A DNA stretch of 64,000 bases, from contig CAIQHB010000056.1 in the NCBI GenBank assembly GCA_903871465.1, forward strand, positions 1 through 64,000, in the 5' to 3' direction. Positions within the stretch are counted from its first letter, which is position 1. Each line of letters opens with the position of its first letter. The notes beneath the pieces were generated by a model that was not told the DNA's origin, did not search any database, and worked only from the letters and a program-made list of their open reading frames with translations. Source of the DNA: an uncultured Methanosarcinales archaeon. GTDB lineage: Archaea > Halobacteriota > Methanosarcinia > Methanotrichales > Methanotrichaceae. A program made the position numbers and the translations under genes. Positions 8,463 through 26,892 of this stretch are shown one piece after another.

Positions 8463-10877
8463 TCATCTGCCAATCGTCTTCTCCGTCTCCAGCACCTTCA
8501 AAGTGATCTTCATCACCGTGTCCGGATTGATGGATATGGAATCTATTCCTTCTTCCACCAGGAATTGGGCAAATTCCGGATAGTCGCTTGGCGCCTGGCC
8601 GCATAGGCCGCTATGCTTTTTATTCCTCCTGTTTCCCAGGATGGCGAGCGCGACCATTATTTTGACAGCAGGATCTCTTTCATCGAAATCCTTGGCCAGG
8701 ATCTCCGAGTCCCGGTCAATTCCAAGAGTAAGCTGAGTCAGATCATTGGAGCCTATTGACATGCCGTCCACGAGCTGGCAGAATTCGTCCACCAAAATCA
8801 CATTGCTCGGCACCTCGCACATGAGATAGACTTGCAGTCCGCCTTCTCCTCGCTTCAGGCCGTTTTTCTCCATCTCGGCCAGTACCCTTCGAGCTTCGTC
8901 CACCCGGCGGCAGAAGGGTATCATCACTATTACATTATTGAGACCCATGACCTCCCTGACTCTCTTGAGGGCGGCACACTCCAGGGCAAAGCCCTCTCTA
9001 TACCGATCACTGTAGTATCGAGATGCTCCCCGGAACCCCAGCATGGGATTATTCTCCTCCAGCTCGAAGAATTTCCCGCCGATGAGGTTGGCGTATTCGT
9101 TGGACTTGAAATCGCTCAGCCGAACTACAACCGGTCGAGGGTAAAAGGCGGCAGCTATTGTCCCGACTCCCATGGCGAGCTTCTCTACGAAGTACTCTTT
9201 ATAGTCACCAAAGCCGTAGGTCAGGTCTTCAATCTGCTTTCTTGCCTTCTCGTCCGTGACCATCTCAGGATGGATCAGGGCCATGGGATGAATCTTAATG
9301 TAGCTGGTTATTATGAACTCCAGACGGGCCAGGCCCACACCGTCATTGGGGATCATGGATGTGGAGAAAGCCTCCTCCGGGTTGCCCAGGTTTATCATGA
9401 TCTCAGTCTTGGGCCGGGACAGGTTCTTCAGGCCCATCTTCTCGACACTAAAAGGCAGTATTCCTTCGTAGACCACGCCCGCATCGCCCTCTGCGCAGCT
9501 GACTGTTACCTCCTGGCCGGTCTTGATCTTCTCCATGGCTCCGGTTGCACCCACCACGGCAGGAATCCCGAACTCCCGGCTGACTATGGCGGCATGGCTG
9601 GTTCTCCCCCCCAGGTTGGTCACGACGGCAGCCGCCTTCTTCATGACCGGCTCCCAGTCAGGGGTTGTAGTATTGGAGATCAGCACCTCTCCTGCCTGGA
9701 AGGAGGAAAGTTCAGTCGGGTCGTGCAAGATTCTCGCCTTACCGCTGGCGATCTTCTCCCCAATACTCCGGCCGGTGACAATTATCGGCCCCTTCTTCTC
9801 CAGGCGATAGGTCTCCAGAACGTCCATGGACCTCTGGGACTGCACAGTCTCCGGCCTGGCCTGAACTATGAAGAGCTCTCCCGTCTTGCCGTCTTTGGCC
9901 CACTCTATATCCATGGGCCGTTCCTTTCCGGCCTTCTTGGAGTAGTAATCCTCAATTACTATTGCATATTTGGCCAGCGTCAGGACTTCCTCGTCGGATA
10001 TGCAGAACGTCCTGGATTCCTTTTCGGGCACATCAACATTGTAGGTCAGAGCCTTCTCCTCACCCGTGCCGTAGATCATCTTGATCTTTTTGTCACCCAG
10101 GGTCTTCCTGACGAGAGGCTTGAAACCTTTTTTAAGTGTGGTCTTGAAGACATAAAACTCATCGGGGTTCACAGCACCCTGCACAATGTTCTCACCCAGA
10201 CCATAGGCCCCTGTGATGAAGACTACATCCCTGAAGCCGGATTCGGTGTCCAGGGTGAAGATGACGCCGCTGGAGGCCAGGTCCGACCTCACCATCTTCA
10301 TGATGCCGATGGAGAGAGCGACCTTGAAGTGGTCGAATCCGTTGTCTATGCGGTAGGAGATGGCCCGGTCGGTAAATAGAGATGCGTAGCACTTGATGCA
10401 GGCACCCATAAGCTCCTCGCGTCCACGCACATTGAGAAAGGTCTCCTGCTGCCCTGCGAAGGAGGCCGTGGGCAGGTCCTCTGCAGTGGCACTGCTGCGT
10501 ACGGCCACGTCTGTATCTTTTCCATACTGCTCGCTCAATCTGTCATAAGCGGCCTCTATCTGGCTCCAGAGGTCTTCCGGAATACGGGCTTCGAGTATCA
10601 GCTCTCGAGCCTTCTTGCCCTTCTCGGCCAGTTCTTTTACCGGGCTCTTCTTATCGAGCCCTGCCAGAGTATCTCTGAGCGGCTCCAAAATTCCTGCAGA
10701 CGCCAATAGGTGCCAGTAGGCTTCTGAGGTGGTGGCAAAACCGTTGGGTATCTTTACTCCGCCTGCTGTAAGCTCCTGATACATCTCACCCAGAGACGCA
10801 TTCTTGCCGCCTACCAGGGGTATATCTTCTATTCGGATCTGGTCAAACCAGAGGATGAATTTGCTTTCTTCGGCCAT
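8463..10877 (-). CDS. ppsA: Phosphoenolpyruvate synthase
   Basis: This 804-residue enzyme converts pyruvate, ATP and water to PEP, AMP and phosphate, the entry to gluconeogenesis in an acetate- or CO2-fixing methanogen. The N-terminal ATP-binding domain runs to about residue 340 (GGKNASLGEMYQEL, DVAVRSSATAEDLP, FIVQARPETVQS). The phosphohistidine swivel domain has GGRTSHAAIVSREFG near residue 425. The TIM-barrel PEP domain has SIGSNDLTQLTLG and the catalytic-cysteine region GLCGQAPSDYPE. Length and domain order are normal. It stands alone with its own promoter region upstream of 10877. Confidence 0.95.
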   Translation of the reverse strand: MAEESKFILWFDQIRIEDIPLVGGKNASLGEMYQELTAGGVKIPNGFATTSEAYWHLLASAGILEPLRDTLAGLDKKSPVKELAEKGKKARELILEARIPEDLWSQIEAAYDRLSEQYGKDTDVAVRSSATAEDLPTASFAGQQETFLNVRGREELMGACIKCYASLFTDRAISYRIDNGFDHFKVALSIGIMKMVRSDLASSGVIFTLDTESGFRDVVFITGAYGLGENIVQGAVNPDEFYVFKTTLKKGFKPLVRKTLGDKKIKMIYGTGEEKALTYNVDVPEKESRTFCISDEEVLTLAKYAIVIEDYYSKKAGKERPMDIEWAKDGKTGELFIVQARPETVQSQRSMDVLETYRLEKKGPIIVTGRSIGEKIASGKARILHDPTELSSFQAGEVLISNTTTPDWEPVMKKAAAVVTNLGGRTSHAAIVSREFGIPAVVGATGAMEKIKTGQEVTVSCAEGDAGVVYEGILPFSVEKMGLKNLSRPKTEIMINLGNPEEAFSTSMIPNDGVGLARLEFIITSYIKIHPMALIHPEMVTDEKARKQIEDLTYGFGDYKEYFVEKLAMGVGTIAAAFYPRPVVVRLSDFKSNEYANLIGGKFFELEENNPMLGFRGASRYYSDRYREGFALECAALKRVREVMGLNNVIVMIPFCRRVDEARRVLAEMEKNGLKRGEGGLQVYLMCEVPSNVILVDEFCQLVDGMSIGSNDLTQLTLGIDRDSEILAKDFDERDPAVKIMVALAILGNRRNKKHSGLCGQAPSDYPEFAQFLVEEGIDSISINPDTVMKITLKVLETEKTIGR

Positions 10878-17033: not shown

Positions 17034-17492
17034 CTAAACAGGTGGGGTTTCTTCCTTTACTCGCTCCACGACTACGATCTCGAGGAGATCCTCGATGCCG
17101 TCTATTGACCGAATGCGATCGTTGATGATGGTGTTTAGCTCTTCCAGGCTTCTAGACCAGACCTTGAGGAAGAGATCGTACTCGCCCAGCACCCCATAGA
17201 CCTCCGTTATCTCAGGGATCTTTGCCAGAGACATGACTGCGTTATCGTGCCTCTCTGCGTCCGTCTGCACGAGCATGATGGCGGTCACTGTGTAGCCTGT
17301 CGCCGCCGGATTGGCGGTAATGGTAAATTGCTCAATGACCCCATTGGCCTTCATGCGCTTCAGCCTGAATTGAAGCGTTGCGTCGGAGATGCCGGATATT
17401 CGCGACATCTCTTGCAGGCTCATGCGCGCGTTCTGCCGCAGGCTGCGAAGGATGGTGCGATCCATTTCGTCGAGGTCCAAGCTGTTGCCCAT
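17034..17492 (-). CDS. Lrp/AsnC-family transcriptional regulator
   Basis: A 152-residue protein with the usual layout: an N-terminal HTH (LDEMDRTILRSLRQNARMSL, QEMSRISGISDATLQFRLKR) and a C-terminal RAM/AsnC ligand domain (YTVTAIMLVQTDAE, EITEVYGVLGEYDLFLKVWS). It heads the four-gene leftward run that includes three magnesium-type transport genes. The promoter carries a perfect 8-bp inverted repeat between TATA box and start, a likely autoregulatory site. A GAGGAG element lies 14 nt before the ATG. The effector (amino acid or metal-linked) is unknown. Confidence 0.9.
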   Translation of the reverse strand: MGNSLDLDEMDRTILRSLRQNARMSLQEMSRISGISDATLQFRLKRMKANGVIEQFTITANPAATGYTVTAIMLVQTDAERHDNAVMSLAKIPEITEVYGVLGEYDLFLKVWSRSLEELNTIINDRIRSIDGIEDLLEIVVVERVKEETPPV

Positions 17493-17525
17493 ATTTATCT
17501 TGTATTCTCCTCAATATTTTCTCAT

Positions 17526-17548
17526 AATATTGGTAAATTGCCAATATT
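17526..17548 (-). promoter_or_regulatory. Palindromic operator of the lrp operon
   Basis: AATATTGG and CCAATATT are separated by seven bases, a perfect inverted repeat. It lies directly downstream of the TATA box, across the predicted transcription start, where a bound dimer would block RNA polymerase. The regulator it precedes is the natural candidate. Confidence 0.65.
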
Positions 17549-17550
17549 GT

Positions 17551-17558
17551 CATATAAA
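17551..17558 (-). promoter_or_regulatory. TATA box of the lrp operon
   Basis: On the minus strand this reads TTTATATG, preceded by AAGC. It predicts a start near 17528, inside the palindrome. Confidence 0.6.
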
Positions 17559-17655
17559 GCTTATCCTTCCACCAAACAGTATCATAAATAATTATATATT
17601 AATTTATTTTTAATAGTTATGTCGAGCAGCAAAATAGCTGAATTGAAGAAATAAG

Positions 17656-18355
17656 AAGGAGGGAGGCAAAAGTCATCAGGAGTGTAGGAGGGAGAAAATA
17701 TGCCATCGACTTTCGCCGATGTACTATACGTCAATTGCTATATTTAAGGATTCCGATCCGGACAGATCGCGAGCATGGACCGCCATCGAAGGGAAGAAAC
17801 AAAAAGAACAGCATAATCGATTCCCAGGCAGGCCAGCGCCGAAATCCACAGCGCCCTTTTAGGAGGAGCCAGTCACCTGAGCGACCGCCTGACCCTGCCC
17901 GAAGCTCGACTAAAATTAAGCCTGCTCAAGGCGGCATTTGCACTGGAATTCGACACAGCGTCCTTTTACGGGAACCCGAACTCACTGGGCCTCATGCTCG
18001 CCTCTCGCCTCTGGCTTTGTGCCGCAACATGTCCCGGTCGTGTATTAGCGCGAGATCCTTTCGACAGATTACTGCACCAGTTACAGTGCGCAACTTTTTT
18101 TGCTGCCGAAATTCAAACCTCACAGGCGCCCAAGCCCGAATGCAGTGCCACGACGGCCTAGCATCTCCTGGAACAAGGAAAGCGATCTGATACATAAGCG
18201 ACCGCAAGCTGCCCCACGGAGGGACAGCGATTGAATCATCCTTGCCAAACAGAGCATTATCGGAATCGGTTTTGCCCACGACACACCCGCCACCCTTTGC
18301 ATGAAGCGGCAAACTACTCATATAATCGTTATAGATATTTGTAGTTTGCGGTTGA
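17656..18355 (-). ncRNA. Structured non-coding repeat element, copy B (candidate large RNA)
   Basis: This is the 700-bp partner of 11145-11842, in the same orientation. Possible helices fall at the same positions: 17827-17836 with 17889-17899, hairpin 18210-18226 and hairpin 18074-18089. The last uses GCAC/GTGC where copy A uses GTC/GAC, so the pairing is kept with different bases. The 36 bp at 18320-18355 are identical to copy A and lie at the putative promoter end (minus strand). No protein frame is shared with copy A. It lies between lrp and the nucleotidyltransferase region. Transcript direction is inferred. Confidence 0.5.
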
Positions 18356-18759: not shown

Positions 18760-19443
18760 CTAAAATCGCCCTCGCATTTTACCTTTTTCGTGATACTCAA
18801 ACGCCAAAAGGGATATTTTGTCGCCTATGGGAATGGTCAAATCGTTATCCTGCAGCCGAGCTATGCCTTCCTCAATGTAGTTGATCCAGATCTTCTCTTT
18901 CGCCTCGCCAGCCTTGCGGTACTGCGCCTCTATCTCCCGGTAGACCGCATCAAAGTCCAGGCCTGCAATGACCAGATTGGAGCAGTCCGGAGCGTCTCCC
19001 GGCCGGTTGGCGATCAGCTTCATGATGAAGATGTCCTCCATGGAGGCATCTCTGACCACCAGGCTGCCGAAGGACCTGACTCTTTTAGCCCTCTGCCACA
19101 TAGCCTCGGAGAGGTCAAAGTCGTAGGAGATCCGCCCGGCAAAGATGTCCAGATTGCGCCCGCCCTTCACAGCCAGCCGCGAAACTCCGAGCCGCTCATG
19201 CCTCTTTTCCGGGCCGACGATCTCAAAGCCCAGGGCCTTGGCGGCTGCAAGCAGCCTATCTTTGTCCTCCTCGTTCCTGCAGACCACATCGATATCCTTG
19301 GTGGCGTCCTTGAGCCCCAGCTCCAGCATCACGGCACCGCCTATGAGCAGGGCCTCTACCCTCTGTTCCAGAACCTGGCCGAGCTGCTCGAACAGCTCGT
19401 TAATCTCCTCTTTCCGGGAGATCTTGTCAGAGTTTGATATCAT
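18760..19443 (-). CDS. AbiEii-like nucleotidyltransferase, module 1
   Basis: The 227-residue protein has the minimal nucleotidyltransferase core: LIGGAVMLELGLKDATKDID holds the glycine signature and the DxD metal pair, and LDIFAGRISYDF the third acidic strand. SMEDIFIMKLIANRPGDAPD is the usual helix after the core. This resembles AbiEii-type/DUF6036 nucleotidyltransferases, several of which are toxins that modify tRNA ends or proteins. It overlaps the upstream winged-helix gene by 17 nt. A close paralogue is at 21659-22348. Toxin function is inference from gene layout. Confidence 0.7.
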   Translation of the reverse strand: MISNSDKISRKEEINELFEQLGQVLEQRVEALLIGGAVMLELGLKDATKDIDVVCRNEEDKDRLLAAAKALGFEIVGPEKRHERLGVSRLAVKGGRNLDIFAGRISYDFDLSEAMWQRAKRVRSFGSLVVRDASMEDIFIMKLIANRPGDAPDCSNLVIAGLDFDAVYREIEAQYRKAGEAKEKIWINYIEEGIARLQDNDLTIPIGDKISLLAFEYHEKGKMRGRF

Positions 19444-20305
19444 AGAGATCCGTCCTGTCCTCGATATCGTCCAGGGTTGGATAGCCTTTGATCCTCTCGC
19501 CCTGCAGCACGGCTTTCAGATCTTTCATCATGGGATGATCGATTGCCTCCAATTTATCCCTGTTCTTCAGATAGAACAACACGCAAAAAAGCTTCTGGGA
19601 GAACTCCCATGCCGAGTCCAGGGAGTGTATGAAGACCTCCTGGATGGACATCTCTCTCTTGGGAAGTGTGTAGTAGTAATCCCTCAGCCCCAGCTCGATC
19701 CCGTAATCCTCGTAGGCGGAAAAGGAGGTGAAGGTGGCGTCCTGCGGCCTCAGGCTCTTGAAGAGCACGCTGGTCCCGTAGCTCTTGATGAGCAGGGCTT
19801 CACGGGGCACGAGGCGCAGAACCTGGTATTCCAGGAGCGAAGTCACGAAATCCTTCAGCTCCGGCCAGATGATGTAGTTGAAGGAGAAATGATAGGCTTT
19901 GCCTTGCTTGGAGCGGCTGACGATGCCCACCCAGAGGAAGCCCTTCAGATAGCCGTACAGGGTATCACTGGGGATGCCGGTCTCCACGGCCAGTTCTTCC
20001 AGGCTCCTGGGGGTCCGGTCCAGTCTGGCGAGCAGCTCCACTCGCCGCAGGGAGAGGATCTTATGCAGAGGTGAAGCCCGGTGACTGAAGTAGAGCTTCT
20101 TGAAGGCCTCTGCCGGAGGCGTGCCGGCCAGGACGACTTCGCGCCCACTCCGTTCTGCCAGCCCCATTTCCACCAGGTGAGTTATGAGCCGGGAGACGGT
20201 CTCTCTCCGGAGCCCCAGCTCCGCCTGGAGGGTGGAGGGGTTCACCGGCTCTTTGGATCCGATGATGAGGACAAGCGCCCGGACGTCGTTCTGGCTAAAG
20301 GACAT
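19427..20305 (-). CDS. Winged-helix regulator/antitoxin, module 1
   Basis: This 292-residue protein has two DNA-binding winged-helix segments. The first covers about residues 5-60 (DVRALVLIIGSKEPVNPSTL, GLRRETVSRLITHLVEMGLA). The second covers about 85-140 (RVELLARLDRTPRSLEELAV, GIPSDTLYGYLKGFLWVGIV). The C-terminal half is a conserved domain (LLIKSYGTSVLFKSLRPQDA, SAYEDYGIELGLRDYYYTLP) shared with the paralogue at 22323-23210. The gene precedes and overlaps the nucleotidyltransferase, as AbiEi precedes AbiEii. It is probably repressor and antitoxin in one. The promoter gives a leaderless start. Confidence 0.7.
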   Translation of the reverse strand: MSFSQNDVRALVLIIGSKEPVNPSTLQAELGLRRETVSRLITHLVEMGLAERSGREVVLAGTPPAEAFKKLYFSHRASPLHKILSLRRVELLARLDRTPRSLEELAVETGIPSDTLYGYLKGFLWVGIVSRSKQGKAYHFSFNYIIWPELKDFVTSLLEYQVLRLVPREALLIKSYGTSVLFKSLRPQDATFTSFSAYEDYGIELGLRDYYYTLPKREMSIQEVFIHSLDSAWEFSQKLFCVLFYLKNRDKLEAIDHPMMKDLKAVLQGERIKGYPTLDDIEDRTDLYDIKL

Positions 20306-20328
20306 TCTCTTTGAATTAGATCAAATGC

Positions 20329-20337
20329 ATATATAAA
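20329..20337 (-). promoter_or_regulatory. TATA box of module 1
   Basis: The minus strand reads TTTATATAT, 24-32 nt before the ATG at 20305, without a Shine-Dalgarno. A leaderless mRNA is likely. Confidence 0.55.
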
Positions 20338-20399
20338 TGTGATCCTGATTCAAGATAATATGTCGTAATGCAGCTCAAGGGAAGGGAGCAGGAAGCCGA

Positions 20400-20590
20400 G
20401 GCGAGGACGGCGTTCCCCCAGGCCATTCAGTATCTCCTCGACCTCTTCAGCTCGATATCATTGATTCCATAAGCTCCGCCTGCTCTACAATATCTTCTCT
20501 CGTGGGATAGCCCTTGATATTCTCTCCCCTCGGGGCCGCCCGGATGCTCTAGTTGTCTCGCAGGCCCAGCTTGATTCCGAATTCTGCTGG
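20400..20590 (-). pseudogene. Remnant of a third winged-helix/nucleotidyltransferase module
   Basis: The DNA at 20425-20560 closely matches the junction of module 2 (22294-22437), covering the nucleotidyltransferase start and the C-terminal end of the winged-helix gene. It then jumps, after CGGATGCTCT, to sequence matching 22581 onward. Roughly 140 bp have therefore been deleted, and the rest of both genes is missing. Confidence 0.7.
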
Positions 20591-20690
20591 CGGGGAGTGG
20601 AGCCGGGCGGACATCCGGATAAGCGAAGGACCGGAGCGCCATATGCCTTATGAAAAAATTTATAATCGATGCATGGACTGACAAATATCT

Positions 20691-21524
20691 ATGAAACAAA
20701 TGGGATTCTTATTAATCCTCATGATCATATTGGGGACGACCTGCACAGCATATGCATCGGAGGGGGCTAACTTTGGGCCGCAGACGACAAGCGGAGAGCC
20801 TTTATGGAGGCTGCTCTCTGCCTCTGATGCTGTGAACTCCAATCTCTCCAAAATCGAAACTGATCTTGCCGATACCAGCCTCGTCCTATCAGAAACAGGC
20901 ATCGATGGGCCTGCTGCCCGGGGAGTTCTGTCAAACCTCACGATGGCGGATACTGCTGTAATCGATTGCATCACGATTGACGCCAACGGCACCGTGAGTG
21001 AGGTCGAGCCCATGTCGTTTGAAAGTGTGAAGGGAACAAACTTGAAACGACAGAAGCATGTGAATGACACAATCAATACCAGGCTGTATTCGGGTTTCCA
21101 TCTCATAAAGGCAGTCGAAGGATTGTATGCAATCGATTCAGAGATGCCCATCTTCGACAAGAATGGAACATTTGTGGGAACAGTAAGCCTGATGTTTAAT
21201 AACAGCCAGTTTTTCGGAAGGGTCCTGGCTCCGTTCCAGCCTTCCTCGGGAAACTCCAAGATATGGGTGAGCAAGGCGGATGATGGTACGATCCTGTACG
21301 ATACAGATCCTACCCAGGTATTGCTCAATAAAAGCTCTTCCATGTATCTGGATTATCCCGAACTTTTGAAACTATTTAATAGGATGAGCATTGAGAGAAC
21401 AGGTTACGGAACTTATGAGTTCTTAGACCAATCTCACGGGGAGACGATAAAGAAAGGCTGCTATTGGACAACGATTCCCAATGAAGGCACTGAGATGAGG
21501 CTTGCACTCACACTGGAGCTTTGA
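20691..21524 (+). CDS. Secreted PDC/dCache-like sensor domain protein
   Basis: The 277-residue protein has a signal peptide (MGFLLILMIILGTTCTAYAS, cleavage about residue 24). The rest looks like one extracellular double-PDC (dCache-type) ligand-binding domain: an N-terminal long helix (SDAVNSNLSKIETDLADTSL), then VIDCITIDANGTVSEVEP, SEMPIFDKNGTFVGTVSLMF and KADDGTILYDTDP, the repeated strand-turn elements of PDC folds. Such domains normally sit on histidine kinases or chemoreceptors, but this one stops without a transmembrane or signalling part. It may be a free or anchored ligand-binding protein, or the surviving half of a receptor. Confidence 0.65.
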   Translation: MKQMGFLLILMIILGTTCTAYASEGANFGPQTTSGEPLWRLLSASDAVNSNLSKIETDLADTSLVLSETGIDGPAARGVLSNLTMADTAVIDCITIDANGTVSEVEPMSFESVKGTNLKRQKHVNDTINTRLYSGFHLIKAVEGLYAIDSEMPIFDKNGTFVGTVSLMFNNSQFFGRVLAPFQPSSGNSKIWVSKADDGTILYDTDPTQVLLNKSSSMYLDYPELLKLFNRMSIERTGYGTYEFLDQSHGETIKKGCYWTTIPNEGTEMRLALTLEL

Positions 21525-21658
21525 TAGAACCAGATGGGCCTAGTGGCTCTGGAGCGCAGGCAGAGAGAAGAAGGACAGCGATCCTGGTATAACGCCTACT
21601 GGAAGACCGAGCTGGGCCAATGGGCAGTACGGATAATGAAGGGTACCCGAAGCTCCAT

Positions 21659-22348
21659 TCAACCAGGTCGAGATGGGCTCAATTTCTGATAAAGCCTCTC
21701 TCTGTACTCATTCGCCAGCTCCGAGATCCTGTCCGCAATGGTCACTTGTAGCTGGTAGTCCTCCTCCAGCTTCCCGATGCCCTCTTCCAGGTAGGTGATC
21801 CAGATCTTTTCCTCGACAGTTCCGGCCTTGAAATATTGAGCCAGAATCTCAGAGTAGATCGCTTCAAAATCCATTTTCGTTGACGCCAGAGAGACGCAAT
21901 CCTCGAGATCCCTTGGCCGGTTGGCGATCAGCTTGAGACTGAAAATGTCCTCCACTGCCGCATACCTCATCTCCGCCTTACCGAGGAGACGGGTCTTCTT
22001 GCCCCTTTGCCACATGCCCTCGGAAAGCCCGAAGTCGTAGGAGATCCGGCCGGCAAAGATGTCCAGGGTGTGTTCACCTTTGATGGCCACCCGGTCCAGG
22101 CCCAGGCGAGCATGCCTCTTCTCCGGCCCAAACACCTCGAAGCCCAGGCTTTTGGCCGCTTCAAGCAGCCTGGCCTTGCCTGTAGCATCCCTGCAAACCA
22201 AGTCGATATCCTTGGTTGCGTCCTTCAGGCCGTATTCCAGCATGGCCGCCCCGCCTATGACCAGAAATGCAACGGGCTCTTTCAATTGCTCGCCCAGACC
22301 CTTCAGTATCTCCTCGACCTCTTCACGGCTCGATATTTGTGATTCCAT
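21659..22348 (-). CDS. AbiEii-like nucleotidyltransferase, module 2
   Basis: The 229-residue product is a close paralogue of the protein at 18760-19443. It has LVIGGAAMLEYGLKDATKDI followed by DLVC (glycine motif and DxD), HTLDIFAGRISYDFGLSEGM and AVEDIFSLKLIANRPRD. I chose the ATG at 22348 because the residues after it align with the start of the first copy; an upstream in-frame ATG at 22369 exists. Its start overlaps the winged-helix gene by 26 nt. The catalytic residues are intact, so both copies could be active. Confidence 0.7.
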   Translation of the reverse strand: MESQISSREEVEEILKGLGEQLKEPVAFLVIGGAAMLEYGLKDATKDIDLVCRDATGKARLLEAAKSLGFEVFGPEKRHARLGLDRVAIKGEHTLDIFAGRISYDFGLSEGMWQRGKKTRLLGKAEMRYAAVEDIFSLKLIANRPRDLEDCVSLASTKMDFEAIYSEILAQYFKAGTVEEKIWITYLEEGIGKLEEDYQLQVTIADRISELANEYRERLYQKLSPSRPG

Positions 22349-23210
22349 AAAGTTCCGCCTGCTCTTCAATATCGTCTTTAGTGGGATAGCCCTTGATATG
22401 CTCTCCCCTCAGGACCTCCCGGATGCTCTTAATCATGGGATGCCGGGCATCTTTCAATTCATCTCTGTTCTTCAGGTAAAACAATATGCAAAAGAGCCTC
22501 TGGCGGTAGTCTTCCGCGGAGTCGAGGGAGTGGATGAAGACCTCTTGGATGGATAGCTCCCTTTTGGGCAGGGTATAGTAGTTGTCCCGCAGGCCCAGCT
22601 TGATCCCGTACTCGTTGTAGGCGCTGAAGGATGTAAGCGTGGCGTCCTGCTGCTTCAGGCTCTTGAAGAGTACGCTATCTTCATAGCTCTTGATGAGCAG
22701 CGCATCCCTGGGGACGAGGCGCACCACCTGGAATTCCTGCAGAGCGGTTACGAAATCCTTCAGCTCCGGCCAGATGACGTAGTTGAAGGAGTAGAGGTAG
22801 GCTTTGCCCTGCATGGAGCGGCTGACAATTCCCAGGGGACGAAGGCCCTGCAGATAGTAGTAGACGGTGTCGCTGGAGATGCCCGTCTCCTCGGCCAGAG
22901 TTTCCAGGCTCTTAGGCTGGCTGTCCAGCCGGGAGAGGAGCTCCACTCTCCGGCCGGACAGGATCTCCGATAAGGGAGAGGCACGGTGAGAGTAGTAGAG
23001 GCGCTTGAAGGCCTCAGCTGGAGGCGTTCCGGCCAGCAGGATCTCGCCTCCCGCCCGCTCCACCAGGCCAATATCTTGCAGGCTGGTAATGATGCGTGAG
23101 ATGGAGCCTTTCAAGAGGCCCATCTCCTTCTGGAGGCCGCTGGGATGCACTGGCTCCTGGGAGCGGGTGATGAGGATCAGGGCGTGGACTTCGTTCTCGC
23201 TGATATGCAT
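22323..23210 (-). CDS. Winged-helix regulator/antitoxin, module 2
   Basis: This 295-residue paralogue of the 19427-20305 product has the same plan. The first winged helix is at about 6-60 (EVHALILITRSQEPVHPSGL, KGSISRIITSLQDIGLVERA), the second at about 85-140 (RVELLSRLDSQPKSLETLAE, GISSDTVYYYLQGLRPLGIV). The conserved C-terminal domain has LLIKSYEDSVLFKSLKQQDA and KRELSIQEVFIHSLDSAEDY. Divergence is greatest in the first recognition helix, which suggests that each copy reads a different operator. TATA-like sequence stands about 30 nt upstream. Confidence 0.7.
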   Translation of the reverse strand: MHISENEVHALILITRSQEPVHPSGLQKEMGLLKGSISRIITSLQDIGLVERAGGEILLAGTPPAEAFKRLYYSHRASPLSEILSGRRVELLSRLDSQPKSLETLAEETGISSDTVYYYLQGLRPLGIVSRSMQGKAYLYSFNYVIWPELKDFVTALQEFQVVRLVPRDALLIKSYEDSVLFKSLKQQDATLTSFSAYNEYGIKLGLRDNYYTLPKRELSIQEVFIHSLDSAEDYRQRLFCILFYLKNRDELKDARHPMIKSIREVLRGEHIKGYPTKDDIEEQAELYGITNIEP

Positions 23211-23234
23211 TTGTCTTAATAAAAGGTGAAATAA

Positions 23235-23242
23235 GTATATAG
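23235..23242 (-). promoter_or_regulatory. TATA-like box of module 2
   Basis: CTATATAC on the minus strand, 25-32 nt before the ATG at 23210; again no Shine-Dalgarno. Confidence 0.45.
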
Positions 23243-23329
23243 CATTATCTCTGCATTAAGACATTAGCCTTCACCAAATACACCCCACCGGCAAGTGCAT
23301 CCGGTTGTGGAAGCCGAGCGCGGGCGGAG

Positions 23330-23693
23330 CACGGTAGAGATCCGGGCGGGCTGGGATTGGAGGAGCAGACCTTCTCGCAAAGATGCAGAATGGATCGATC
23401 TCAAAGGACTGGCGCCGATAGTAGAGCGCCTTTAGGCTGTCCCCCTCCTTGCCGAGGATGGCGCCCAGGTTCTTGAGGGCCACGGGATTGCCGGGATCGG
23501 CGGCAAGAGCCTGCATGGTGTACTCCTTGGCCCGCAGCAGGTCGCCCGCTCGCTGGTAACCGAGCGCCAGGGCCACGCAGGCGTGCGAGTGGCCGGGAGC
23601 GAGCTGGATGCAGCGGTGCAGGAGTTCTCGCCCTTTATCGAGCTGGCCATTTGCAGACTGAGGTAGCGAAAGATTTTCATAATCAATAATCTA
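23330..23693 (-). pseudogene. TPR-repeat protein fragment
   Basis: A minus-strand frame open from about 23693 encodes good TPR text: HRCIQLAPGHSHACVALALG, then YQRAGDLLRAKEYTMQALAA, DPGNPVALKNLGAILGKEGD and SLKALYYRRQSFEIDP. It lacks an ATG start and degenerates into unrelated sequence after about 23390. It is a two-to-three repeat piece of a larger tetratricopeptide protein; a GTG at 23579 is the only nearby conventional start. Confidence 0.6.
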
Positions 23694-23709
23694 TTAACCC
23701 GTGATTTTA

Positions 23710-24597
23710 ATGGAGAAAAAAGCAGCACTTAGAGGACTAAAGCAGATTAAGCAACTTCTAGAAGACGAATCGTCAACAGTGTCATTGATGGAAAGCTGCC
23801 AAAAGGATGCGATGGAGATCGTAAGAGATCTGTTCGGAACCGAAAATGGTCATTATGAGACTATTGGCAATGCCACCAAATATTCGGCGGTTCAACGAGA
23901 AATATTACTTGAAGAAATTGATTCGGTAATAATAGAATTGGATGATGAAAACTCAAAAGAGACGAGTAAGGAAATAGTAACAGGTAATCATATGTCCTCG
24001 CAAGAAGATAATGTTTTTGTCGTCCACGGGAGAGACACCAATCTTAAGGAGAATGTGGTTAATTTTCTCAGAGAACTAGGTGTCCATCCTATTATTCTGC
24101 ATGAAGAACCCAACAAAAGCCGCACCATAATCGAGAAATTTGAAGATCATTCATCAAGCGTCAAGTATGCAGTTGTTCTGCTCACACCCGACGATCTAGG
24201 TGGACTGAGATCTAAGCCAAATGAGCTGTCTCCACGCGCCCGTCAGAATGTTGTTTTTGAAATGGGCTACTTCTTTGGAAGTCTTAGGAGAGGGAGAGTA
24301 TGCGCACTGCTATCTCCTGAAGTTGAACGACCCTCTGACATTGATGGTATAATGTACATACCGCTGGACCAAAAAGAGGAATGGAAAGCAAGTTTATTTC
24401 GAGAACTAAAAGCCGCACAATTGAAATTAATAGACGGGATCGATCTATCAGTCGAAATGGTGGCTAGGGATTTGCACAAAGATGCATTTCATTTAAGTCT
24501 TGGCCGGATAGAGGATGTACCATGGACCGCATTAAATGATATCGAAAAAGAGCAATATAGAGAGCAGGCGAGGAAGATGTTAAAGAGTAATGGATAA
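23710..24597 (+). CDS. TIR-domain protein of the CAP12/PCTIR type
   Basis: The 295-residue protein has a helical N-terminal third and then, from about residue 100, a TIR-like nucleotide-binding domain. Landmarks are VFVVHGRDTNLKENVVNFLR, ILHEEPNKSRTIIEKFE, AVVLLTPDDLGG, and ARQNVVFEMGYFFGSLRRGR with the conserved glutamate expected for NAD+ cleavage. SDIDGIMYIPLDQ closes the domain as in the family PF10137 (CAP12/Pycsar TIR). The C-terminal tail (VARDLHKDAFH, PWTALNDIEKEQYREQARKM) faintly resembles RyR-like helical motifs. I used the ATG; an in-frame GTG is nine bases earlier. No cyclase gene adjoins it. A defence NADase is plausible, not shown. Confidence 0.75.
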   Translation: MEKKAALRGLKQIKQLLEDESSTVSLMESCQKDAMEIVRDLFGTENGHYETIGNATKYSAVQREILLEEIDSVIIELDDENSKETSKEIVTGNHMSSQEDNVFVVHGRDTNLKENVVNFLRELGVHPIILHEEPNKSRTIIEKFEDHSSSVKYAVVLLTPDDLGGLRSKPNELSPRARQNVVFEMGYFFGSLRRGRVCALLSPEVERPSDIDGIMYIPLDQKEEWKASLFRELKAAQLKLIDGIDLSVEMVARDLHKDAFHLSLGRIEDVPWTALNDIEKEQYREQARKMLKSNG

Positions 24598-24812
24598 AAC
24601 CTAATAATTGGAGCGCGTTCTCGTCATCGTCTGTCTTTGTATTTCAGAGGGCTTGCATCAGAATGTACGACCAAAAATGGGCGTCGTCAGATGATCCAAA
24701 GATTGATCGATGATATCAACCACATTCCTAAAGCGAATACCATAGCCCCCGTTCAGGTTCGCTCCGCCCTTTTGCCTTGCCCTCATATCCCCGCAGCCAC
24801 CCTTCTCATATC

Positions 24813-25217
24813 ATGGATATCGAACTCCTCCCCACCGTATCCCTGCTCCCCGAGACCTTCAACGTCCTGATCGCCCCCGTGGAGATGCTTACCGGCGCCC
24901 TCAACAACCACCTGGAATTGCAGCGCTACAAGATCCTCTTTATCAGCGGCAACTACTCCCGCATCCTCAGCCGATTGAACCGAAACATCACGGAACTGGA
25001 AGTACGCCGCGCCTTTACCGTCTTTCTGCTCATGACCATCCTGGAGGAGAAACTCTACAGCATCCTGATCGTGGAGAATGAGCCCGTGCTCTACGAGGAT
25101 GCCGTAACATGCGTAGAGTTACGTGACCCAAGCCCTGAAGTAGACCTCAAAACAACGTTGATCTCTTGGATCTCCAATAGTCTTGGGGAGAGGAAAGCCT
25201 CAATCTCCTCGCATTAA
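24813..25217 (+). CDS. Truncated unknown protein, copy 1
   Basis: The 134-residue frame begins MDIELLPTVSLLPETFNVL and runs through LQRYKILFISGNYSRILSRL and ELEVRRAFTVFLLMTILEEK to SILIVENEPVLYEDA. The latter looks like an ATPase-type hydrophobic strand ending in acidic residues. After that point the sequence loses resemblance to its second copy at 26893-27118, which also ends there, so both look like N-terminal pieces of a longer gene. I do not recognise the family. Confidence 0.45.
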   Translation: MDIELLPTVSLLPETFNVLIAPVEMLTGALNNHLELQRYKILFISGNYSRILSRLNRNITELEVRRAFTVFLLMTILEEKLYSILIVENEPVLYEDAVTCVELRDPSPEVDLKTTLISWISNSLGERKASISSH

Positions 25218-25226
25218 CAGTTAGAA

Positions 25227-26666
25227 TTAGGCGGAATTCATTCCTCTGAATACGGATACCAGGGCACCTATTATGCATAATATCCCCGCCAACATCATCA
25301 CACGGCCTATGGTCGCGGAGAGTAGCTCTGGCCCGGCCTCAACAAGAGTCCCATAGTATCCCGCCTGGGCGAGCTGTAGCGACACGAGAATCCCTGAAAA
25401 GGATATACCTAACGCCATTCCCAGGTTTCTAATAGTGGCTGTGAAGCTGGAGGCGATGTTTATCTTTGCCCTGGGCAGGGCCCTCATTATCTCGGTATTA
25501 TTGGGGCCCTGGAAAAAAACGGCGCCTATGCCTGTAGACACAAAGGTGAGTAGCAACAGCCGGGGATCATGACCTAAGCTCCCAGCCAGGTAACCCAAGA
25601 GCATCATGGAAATTGCCATAATCATCATTCCTAGGGCAGCTAAGTACCTGAACTGATGTTTATCATAGATCCAGCCTGTTACAGGCGAACCAATAACCAT
25701 TATGGCCGGGACGATAAGGTAGATTAAACCTACTTGTGATGCCGTATAACCCATTACACCCTCAAAATAGAACGGCCCCAGAATTGATATCATCAGGTTG
25801 GCTACAAAGAATAGTATCATACTGATACAAGGAAGCACAAACATCCTGTAGCGGAAGATAGAGGGGTCCAGTAGTGGGGCCTTATGCCTGGACTCATTGA
25901 TCACGAAAGCTGTCAGGGAGACCAAAAAGATCAGGGCTAAGGCAAGAATGGCAGGCTGAAATGCGAAGCTAATGGCAAGTTGGCCTAATAAGGACATCAT
26001 AGAGACTATGAAGGTTATCAGGGTTATTGCCCCAACCCAATCTACCTTTAAGGTACTGGATCTTTTATCCTCGATTCTCATGTACCTGGAAGATAGCAAC
26101 AGCTGGATGATGCCTATTGGCACGTTTATCAGAAAAATATACTTCCAGCCCAATAGGTCCACTATAAAGCCGCCCAATGTGGGCCCTAATATACTACCGA
26201 TAGCTACTGTGGCGCCGATGTAACCCATGGCCCTGCCTTGCTCACCCCGAGGGAATGCCTGGAAGATTATGGCAGAACTTATGGAAAACATCATGGCCGC
26301 TCCTGTAGCCTGGATTATCCTGCAAAGCACAAGGATGTTCAAGCTTGTGGACATGCCACAGGCTAAAGAACTGAGAGAAAAGAGGGCAATTCCGAGAAAG
26401 AAGAGCTTGGCCTTGCCGACGTATTCTGCGACCTTTCCGAAGATCATAAGCAAGCTGGTGAGTGTGACAAGATAAGAGGTCATGATCATTTGTGATTGAG
26501 CTATGCTGACATTAAAATATTTTGTAATAGTTGGAAGGGCAATGCTGACTACAGATCCATCAACCACTGCCATCAAGACACCAGTGAGAACAAGCAGCAA
26601 AACTATATAGCGATTCTTGCTACCCGATTCCAGTTCCAAATTCAGATCTTCAACGTGATTTTCCAT
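25227..26666 (-). CDS. MFS drug-efflux transporter (DHA2, 14-helix type)
   Basis: I place the start at the ATG at 26666, which has a strong GGAGG site six bases upstream; the frame extends 70 codons further without such a site. The 479-residue protein has the MFS signature of the EmrB/QacA group: VLTGVLMAVVDGSVVSIALP in helix 1 with the motif-D1 aspartate, LCRIIQATGAAMMFSISSAI, and the motif-C GSILGPTLGGFIVDLLGWKY. About 14 helices are visible. It should export hydrophobic compounds by proton antiport. It is flanked by two truncated homologous fragments, which suggests insertion or local rearrangement. Confidence 0.85.
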   Translation of the reverse strand: MENHVEDLNLELESGSKNRYIVLLLVLTGVLMAVVDGSVVSIALPTITKYFNVSIAQSQMIMTSYLVTLTSLLMIFGKVAEYVGKAKLFFLGIALFSLSSLACGMSTSLNILVLCRIIQATGAAMMFSISSAIIFQAFPRGEQGRAMGYIGATVAIGSILGPTLGGFIVDLLGWKYIFLINVPIGIIQLLLSSRYMRIEDKRSSTLKVDWVGAITLITFIVSMMSLLGQLAISFAFQPAILALALIFLVSLTAFVINESRHKAPLLDPSIFRYRMFVLPCISMILFFVANLMISILGPFYFEGVMGYTASQVGLIYLIVPAIMVIGSPVTGWIYDKHQFRYLAALGMMIMAISMMLLGYLAGSLGHDPRLLLLTFVSTGIGAVFFQGPNNTEIMRALPRAKINIASSFTATIRNLGMALGISFSGILVSLQLAQAGYYGTLVEAGPELLSATIGRVMMLAGILCIIGALVSVFRGMNSA

Positions 26667-26892
26667 TGAACCTCCTTTCCTCTCCCAAGTGTTTAATCCA
26701 TCTTTCCGTATCAAAGTTAGACATCTTGCAGCTAACCATGCGTAACTGGTTTGACACATAATTAAATTCAGGCAAAGAACGAAAAAAGAATCGTATCCCT
26801 TCAAGGTTGTCTCTATCAAAACCCGGATATCTCGACTTATTGATCGCCCAAGTGGAGACGCGACCAATACCCTCAACAGTCACCAGAGCCTT

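Follow-up and report, generated by a model that had tools for sequence, protein, structure and literature searches.

A putative stand-alone PDC-S35-type TIR protein with a short RyR-like tail in a Methanothrix-like archaeon

TIR domains of the Pfam family PF10137 have been placed in one clade, with which TirC of Dictyostelium branches, and TirC is described as an oligomerizing (self-assembling) and active NADase (PMC13142454, in the portion of the text available to us). In the same portion, the related TirB and TirD are inactive as NADases, which counts against reading the protein described below as an enzyme of this kind. BREX systems also enter the comparison: the accessible part of a 2026 survey (PMC12839542) describes BREX-related and type 3 BREX layouts and catalogues nuclease backup effectors, and the words TIR and Toll do not occur in its main text. 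The candidate family PDC-S35 is known from the PADLOC models PDLC05003-05007; a full-text literature search for this name found no paper, and searches with five descriptive names returned nothing relevant.

In this study, a TIR gene was analyzed in a stretch of 64,000 nucleotides (hereafter the window, meaning the whole stretch) of DNA of a Methanothrix-like archaeon. The best explanation, to which a probability of roughly 0.6 is given, is that it encodes a horizontally acquired, stand-alone PDC-S35-type TIR protein with predicted NADase activity in abortive defence. A stand-alone sensor-effector had been suggested in a sequence-only reading, and with the PDC-S35 match it becomes the likeliest of the readings considered here. 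As PDC-S35 is already catalogued by PADLOC, the novelty of the window protein is its RyR-like tail. The gene and its parts are as follows.

23710..24597, plus strand: TIR gene, 295 aa, PF10137 / PDC-S35 (open reading frame, Pfam and PADLOC matches)
23710..23994, plus strand: N-terminal helical bundle (helices 2-18, 24-42, 47-53 and 60-88), followed by the first part of a low-confidence linker (AlphaFold2, profile tests)
24010..24429, plus strand: TIR core, residues 101-240 (Pfam for residues 101-220, PADLOC to residue 240)
24259..24261, plus strand: codon of the conserved glutamate E184 (invariance in 38 sequences, alignment with TIR-STING)
24424..24594, plus strand: C-terminal extension, residues 239-295, RyR-like (tail scores, each marginal)

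The reading frame begins with ATG, with an alternative GTG start at 23701, and the gene, which is present as a single copy in its own genome, is intact, with an open frame and the invariant TIR residues retained. Residues 101-220 match PF10137 (CAP12-PCTIR_TIR) with 130.7 bits (E=3.4e-38) against a cut-off of 24.7 bits, a match that is, by its score, far beyond chance. All members of an alignment of 38 sequences retain E184, the glutamate of NVVFEMG, and this residue is aligned to the glutamate of NVVFEFG in the TIR-STING chains 9lmq and 7un8; the CAP12-like TIR with its expected glutamate, as recognized earlier from the letters of the sequence, is therefore borne out. Five PDC-S35 models match the protein (E=2.9e-41 to 9.3e-67), the best of them over residues 41-240, whereas the CBASS TIR effector models reach 9.8e-13 at best and PycTIR reaches 6e-9, so that on PADLOC scores both are far weaker than PDC-S35. 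Furthermore, the NCBIfam Cap12 equivalog cut-off is not attained by the protein (34.2 versus 450 bits). The PADLOC model of PDC-S15 matches the N-terminus weakly (E=0.003, residues 12-103, entry coordinates 23860-24590). An AlphaFold2 model of the whole protein, built with the 38-sequence alignment (mean pLDDT 84, pTM 0.56), places helices, a linker and a TIR fold in this order, and in a Foldseek search this model was matched best by TIR-STING chains (E=2.3e-6). The nearest TIR relative is found in a Methanothrix MAG, with 70% identity over residues 83-240.

The N-terminal region had been described in the sequence-only reading as helical and unknown. Structure prediction gave a confident helical bundle over residues 2-88, with pLDDT values of 85-95 across residues 1-80, and the first half of that description thus stands; the second half probably does not, as a domain that recurs in PDC-S35 is likely present here in diverged form. 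Many bacterial relatives have a helical N-terminal domain that is included in the model PDLC05005, which covers them to near full length (5-262 and 4-261 of 264 positions), whereas the window protein is matched only from model position 43 onwards and adds the RyR-like tail. A first profile of 14 members gave the window 4.9 bits, with 4 of 200 shuffled sequences scoring better and no clean separation. With six added members the score rose to 11.2 bits and none of 2000 shuffles was as good, but this 20-member test is biased in favour of a match since the additions were mostly top scorers of the first profile. A nine-member profile gave 11.3 bits (0 of 2000 as good) and a five-member profile 8.4 bits (2 of 2000), and pairwise z-scores between the window N-terminus and the 20 profile members ranged from -1.7 to 5.8. 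This evidence is moderate, and on it the N-terminus is a probable, diverged helical N-terminal domain of one PDC-S35 (PDLC05005) branch.

Around the TIR core, the N-terminal parts differ among relatives. In the nearest relative, L083, the TIR is 75% identical in protein and the N-terminus has no homology to that of the window; at the DNA level, the two are 80.5% identical and are aligned only over 24086-24424, inside the TIR. Other relatives have other N-termini, for example of a 'YYHV' type. In L061 and L062 the N-terminus looks SLOG-like by eye, and one of these two belongs to the genus of the window. These comparisons suggest that N-terminal parts are swapped around a single TIR core, even within Methanothrix. 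A query with the N-terminus gave a match at E<=1 in 71 of 392 genomes of the phylum, nearly all of them marginal, and one match (E=0.1) among plasmids. The best match besides that of the window, in G060 (E=2.4e-4), was taken as chance; that G060 protein has no TIR match.

The family is widely distributed. Plasmid records that match a PF10137/PDC-S35-like TIR number 1138 (tblastn), and a genome scan gave at least 592 stretches, 572 of which were confirmed as relatives; no TIR relatives were found in a scan of viral contigs. For closer analysis, 97 TIR loci were used (10 archaeal, 7 from plasmids or phages and 80 from genomes), among which L054 and L083 are one and the same locus, the gene of L066 is split by an IS element and that of L062 contains internal stops. 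In a FastTree tree of 95 sequences, calculated with L054 and L066 left out, the window TIR pairs with the other Methanothrix TIR as its sister (support 0.998) and lies outside both the methylase group and the BREX group, the supports of which are weak (0.60 and 0.21). A Pfam scan of operon-adjacent open reading frames covered 79 of 93 (69 plus 10, with 14 left out), and its 69-frame part is represented by the best 25 of 68 families listed.

For five archaeal relatives, homologues of both PglX and BrxC are encoded in the TIR locus, joined by a PglZ homologue in L055, L057 and L060. Searches with family models verified BrxC in L055 and L056, PglZ in L057 and PglX in L056. The TIR gene of L055, L056 and L057 (about 9559-10577, minus strand) lies 3-24 bp from PglX. 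A PDC-S35-type TIR in archaeal BREX loci is a possible NADase layer inside BREX. In addition, seven bacterial relatives with a helical N-terminus lie within 65 bp of a large methylase or overlap it. The methylase was confirmed as N6_N4_Mtase in all six loci tested, and a helicase homologue follows downstream in six of the seven (in L085 there is a short piece only), with ResIII confirmed in 4/4 tested. The TIRs that follow or overlap a methylase, of about 830-1000 aa, are those of L085, L087, L089, L093, L097, L116 and L155. In our reading, the methylase-TIR-helicase loci resemble the layouts of BREX-related and type 3 BREX systems, as far as these are set out in the accessible text of PMC12839542. 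From such neighbours, the window TIR could be regarded as an accessory or backup effector that has been displaced from a BREX or BREX-related locus and needs the methylase and helicase as its trigger. The seven relatives beside an N6_N4-type methylase and the five in PglX-BrxC loci favour this explanation; however, neither context was seen in 85 of the 97 loci by the queries used, the window TIR falls in neither of the two weakly supported tree groups, and the methylase of L097 is unmatched in the genome of the window (in a search without a positive control). It is rather unlikely.

A different association is seen in L070 (1875-3723), where a reverse transcriptase of the retron type VI kind (E=8.8e-79) overlaps the start, as called, of a PDC-S35 TIR gene; the contig was deposited as Salmonella phage (unverified), and transposase-like reading frames are present on it. 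This retron-like locus has the TIR family in common with the window, whereas its N-terminus is of the PDLC05007 type and no reverse transcriptase is present among the scanned neighbours of the window TIR. L066 (3164-6636) is a locus of an Escherichia coli F-type plasmid near pifC and repE, in which the TIR gene of the family is interrupted by IS66.

At the other end of the protein, the sequence-only reading had seen a family ending, and here it was mistaken: about 55 residues follow the TIR in the window protein, and none of the 97 relatives has 25 or more residues at this place. L135 seemed to extend as far as query residue 283, but this was rejected because the alignment overran the L135 stop codon. 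In the full-length AlphaFold2 model, the tail forms two helices of lower confidence (246-263 and 277-294). Pfam gives two weak matches for it, HMG_box_2 (E=0.044) and RyR (PF02026; E=0.047), the latter at 14.4 bits and below the cut-off of 27.4 bits; the two PDB sequences that the tail matches are both ryanodine receptors (E=0.042 and 0.043). Among five single-sequence models of the tail, the best reached a pLDDT of 72 and the others 47-55, and a Foldseek search with the former returned ryanodine receptor chains, many of them redundant, as the top 35 of 48 matches (best E=0.46). With a profile built from 20 RyR-type sequences of archaea, the tail scores 13.6 bits, and none of 5000 shuffles was as good (the best shown had 13.0). 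The scores are marginal singly yet concordant, and the tail looks like a short RyR-type domain. A query with the tail gave a match at E<=0.1 in nine of 196 genomes, including that of the window itself (best other, 0.027), and no match among plasmids and phages.

A phage protein, RyDEP, is reported to have a RyR domain with the ligand residues H, W, H and D, and some phage proteins use a RyR domain to bind related signal molecules (PMC13232231, in the part available to us). A RyR-type fold is suggested for the window tail as well; unlike RyDEP as presented in that part, the tail is fused to a TIR, is shorter and lacks three of the four named residues, with only H256 retained in an alignment with the 20 archaeal RyR-type sequences. 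With one of four ligand residues kept, nucleotide binding by the tail appears doubtful, and since its ligand pocket looks degenerate, the most likely role of the tail is to modulate assembly or activity. A self-regulating protein, in which the tail would be a nucleotide-sensing module that binds, in cis, the ADP-ribose or cyclic isomers produced by the TIR, and in which a single protein would make, read and limit an immune signal, is quite unlikely. If it were true, an archaeal TIR-RyR fusion would link a defence enzyme with this domain. To our knowledge, the RyR-type domain has so far been reported as a phage counter-defence module.

The surroundings of the gene were compared with those in related genomes. 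Two features define its immediate position.

23391..23675, minus strand: TPR gene remnant without the first 39 codons of the open reading frame of a relative (tblastn with the L175 and L176 TPR proteins)
23676..24748, strand not applicable: approximate inserted or replaced block containing the TIR gene (flank synteny in G001, G017 and G010)

The flanks (23392-23648 and 24749-25148) are syntenic in three relatives, G001, G017 and G010, at a spacing of 654-922 bp; the DNA in between is different and holds no TIR, and these genomes have no TIR match. The TIR gene therefore occupies a variable slot, which is a possible cargo site (23676-24748). Between the TPR gene and a conserved reading frame (24777-25217), the contents of the slot differ among Methanothrix genomes (G001:C75, G017:C20 and G010:C251). 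No repeats flank the insert, the only direct pair, of 14 nt, being inside the reading frame. The GC content is 0.41 in the TIR reading frame, 0.575 in the left flank and 0.50 in the right flank, and GC3 is 0.37 compared with 0.70-0.78 in the modules described below. However, GC falls to 0.41 elsewhere in the window too (17400-17799 and 26400-26799), so that a low value alone is no proof of transfer. The gene was probably acquired. Its presence in only four of 26 genomes of the genus (G000, G007, G013 and G020) and its position against the TPR remnant would also suit a decaying or inactive gene in a junk slot, but the open frame, the invariant residues and the 75% protein identity to the L083 sister TIR at 80.5% DNA identity make this very unlikely.

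The TIR had been noted as lacking its cyclase, and this is confirmed for the locus: a Pfam scan found no cyclase among the seven neighbouring proteins (18760-25217), and SMODS (PF18144) was not found in the assembly, which is listed as 99.6% complete (three of 14 control genomes gave matches). The seven scanned neighbours include no defence genes; neither the pyrimidine cyclase expected beside PycTIR nor the ThsA-type (SLOG) partner expected in Thoeris is among them, and STING and SAVED domains have no match in them or in the TIR protein. In the genomes of 50 out of the 80 genome loci, SMODS was matched in 14 and lay within 20 kb of the TIR in none (coordinates compared by hand); the absence of a cyclase is thus usual for relatives of this TIR and, given its membership of PDC-S35, normal for the window TIR. 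In L095, for which contig numbers are ambiguous, no SMODS-type reading frame is present at the given coordinates. The window protein has a TIR fold and the NVVFE glutamate in common with Cap12 / TIR-STING of CBASS, but is without a STING domain and a SMODS cyclase. That it is a CBASS or Pycsar effector with a cyclase located elsewhere or lost is highly improbable: the Pfam family is identical (PF10137), but the CBASS and Pycsar models score well below PDC-S35, and SMODS in the assembly, STING and SAVED in the locus, and a pyrimidine cyclase among the seven neighbours all gave no match.

The seven neighbours include duplicated modules.

18760-20305 and 21659-23210, minus strand: duplicated HTH and nucleotidyltransferase modules (Pfam, copy-to-copy comparison)

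As had been recognized from the sequence, two copies with AbiEii-like nucleotidyltransferases stand next to the TIR; they are 69% identical in the HTH protein and 59% in the nucleotidyltransferase. Both nucleotidyltransferases match DUF6036, and that of copy 2 also matches AbiEii (23.1 bits against a cut-off of 22.5). In each module, an HVO_A0261-like winged-helix regulator comes first and a DUF6036/AbiEii-type nucleotidyltransferase second. The module recurs in the genus, where several copies are broken by stops or fragmentary, and it resembles a family of the toxin-antitoxin type in the course of duplication and decay. Among 149 related genomes, the TIR query matched in 13 (including two doubtful ones, G060, with a match confined to sequence outside the TIR core, and G116, with a weak match), the HTH in 43 and the nucleotidyltransferase in 40. 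The TIR overlaps with the HTH in six genomes and with the nucleotidyltransferase in five (Fisher p=0.20 and 0.34; p=0.32 and 0.52 with the window's own genome left out), and in none of the 12 other genomes is a module adjacent to the TIR-query match, the window being the sole adjacent case. In G116 a TIR match and a module share a contig, about 1 Mb apart, and across the 97 TIR loci outside the window there is one weak nucleotidyltransferase match, in L095, 3.5 kb from the TIR. The earlier suggestion that the adjacent enzymes may supply a signal is not sustained by these figures; because adjacency is absent in relatives and co-occurrence is non-significant, the modules look like chance, independent neighbours. 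A new two-part system, in which the TIR would be switched on by a nucleotide signal that these nucleotidyltransferases produce or transfer, is scarcely credible: the start of module 2 is about 500 bp away from that of the TIR, with divergent transcription, but the co-occurrence (p=0.20-0.52), the 0/12 adjacency, the single weak match in the 97 loci and the TPR remnant and GC break between modules and TIR all oppose it.

Upon infection, the N-terminal bundle would sense a viral cue or partner and would then let the TIR domains assemble, releasing a latent NADase, an activity that we infer from the relation to TirC as reported in the available portion of PMC13142454. The assembled TIR would split NAD+ into nicotinamide and either ADP-ribose or a cyclic isomer of it, which would stop the cell and abort the infection, while the RyR-like tail would modulate assembly or activity and the HTH-nucleotidyltransferase modules would play no part. 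In this methane-producing archaeon, the protein probably halts virus infection by destroying NAD+.

PDC-S35 is a widespread candidate defence family. The survey suggests that its TIR core occurs in BREX loci, behind methylases of the BREX-related type, beside a retron reverse transcriptase or alone. Because the main text of the BREX survey (PMC12839542) is without TIR or Toll, the idea that NAD+ depletion adds another layer to BREX-type loci is testable. Furthermore, if the RyR-like tail binds ADPR-type ligands, a TIR and a nucleotide-reading domain would be joined in one protein.
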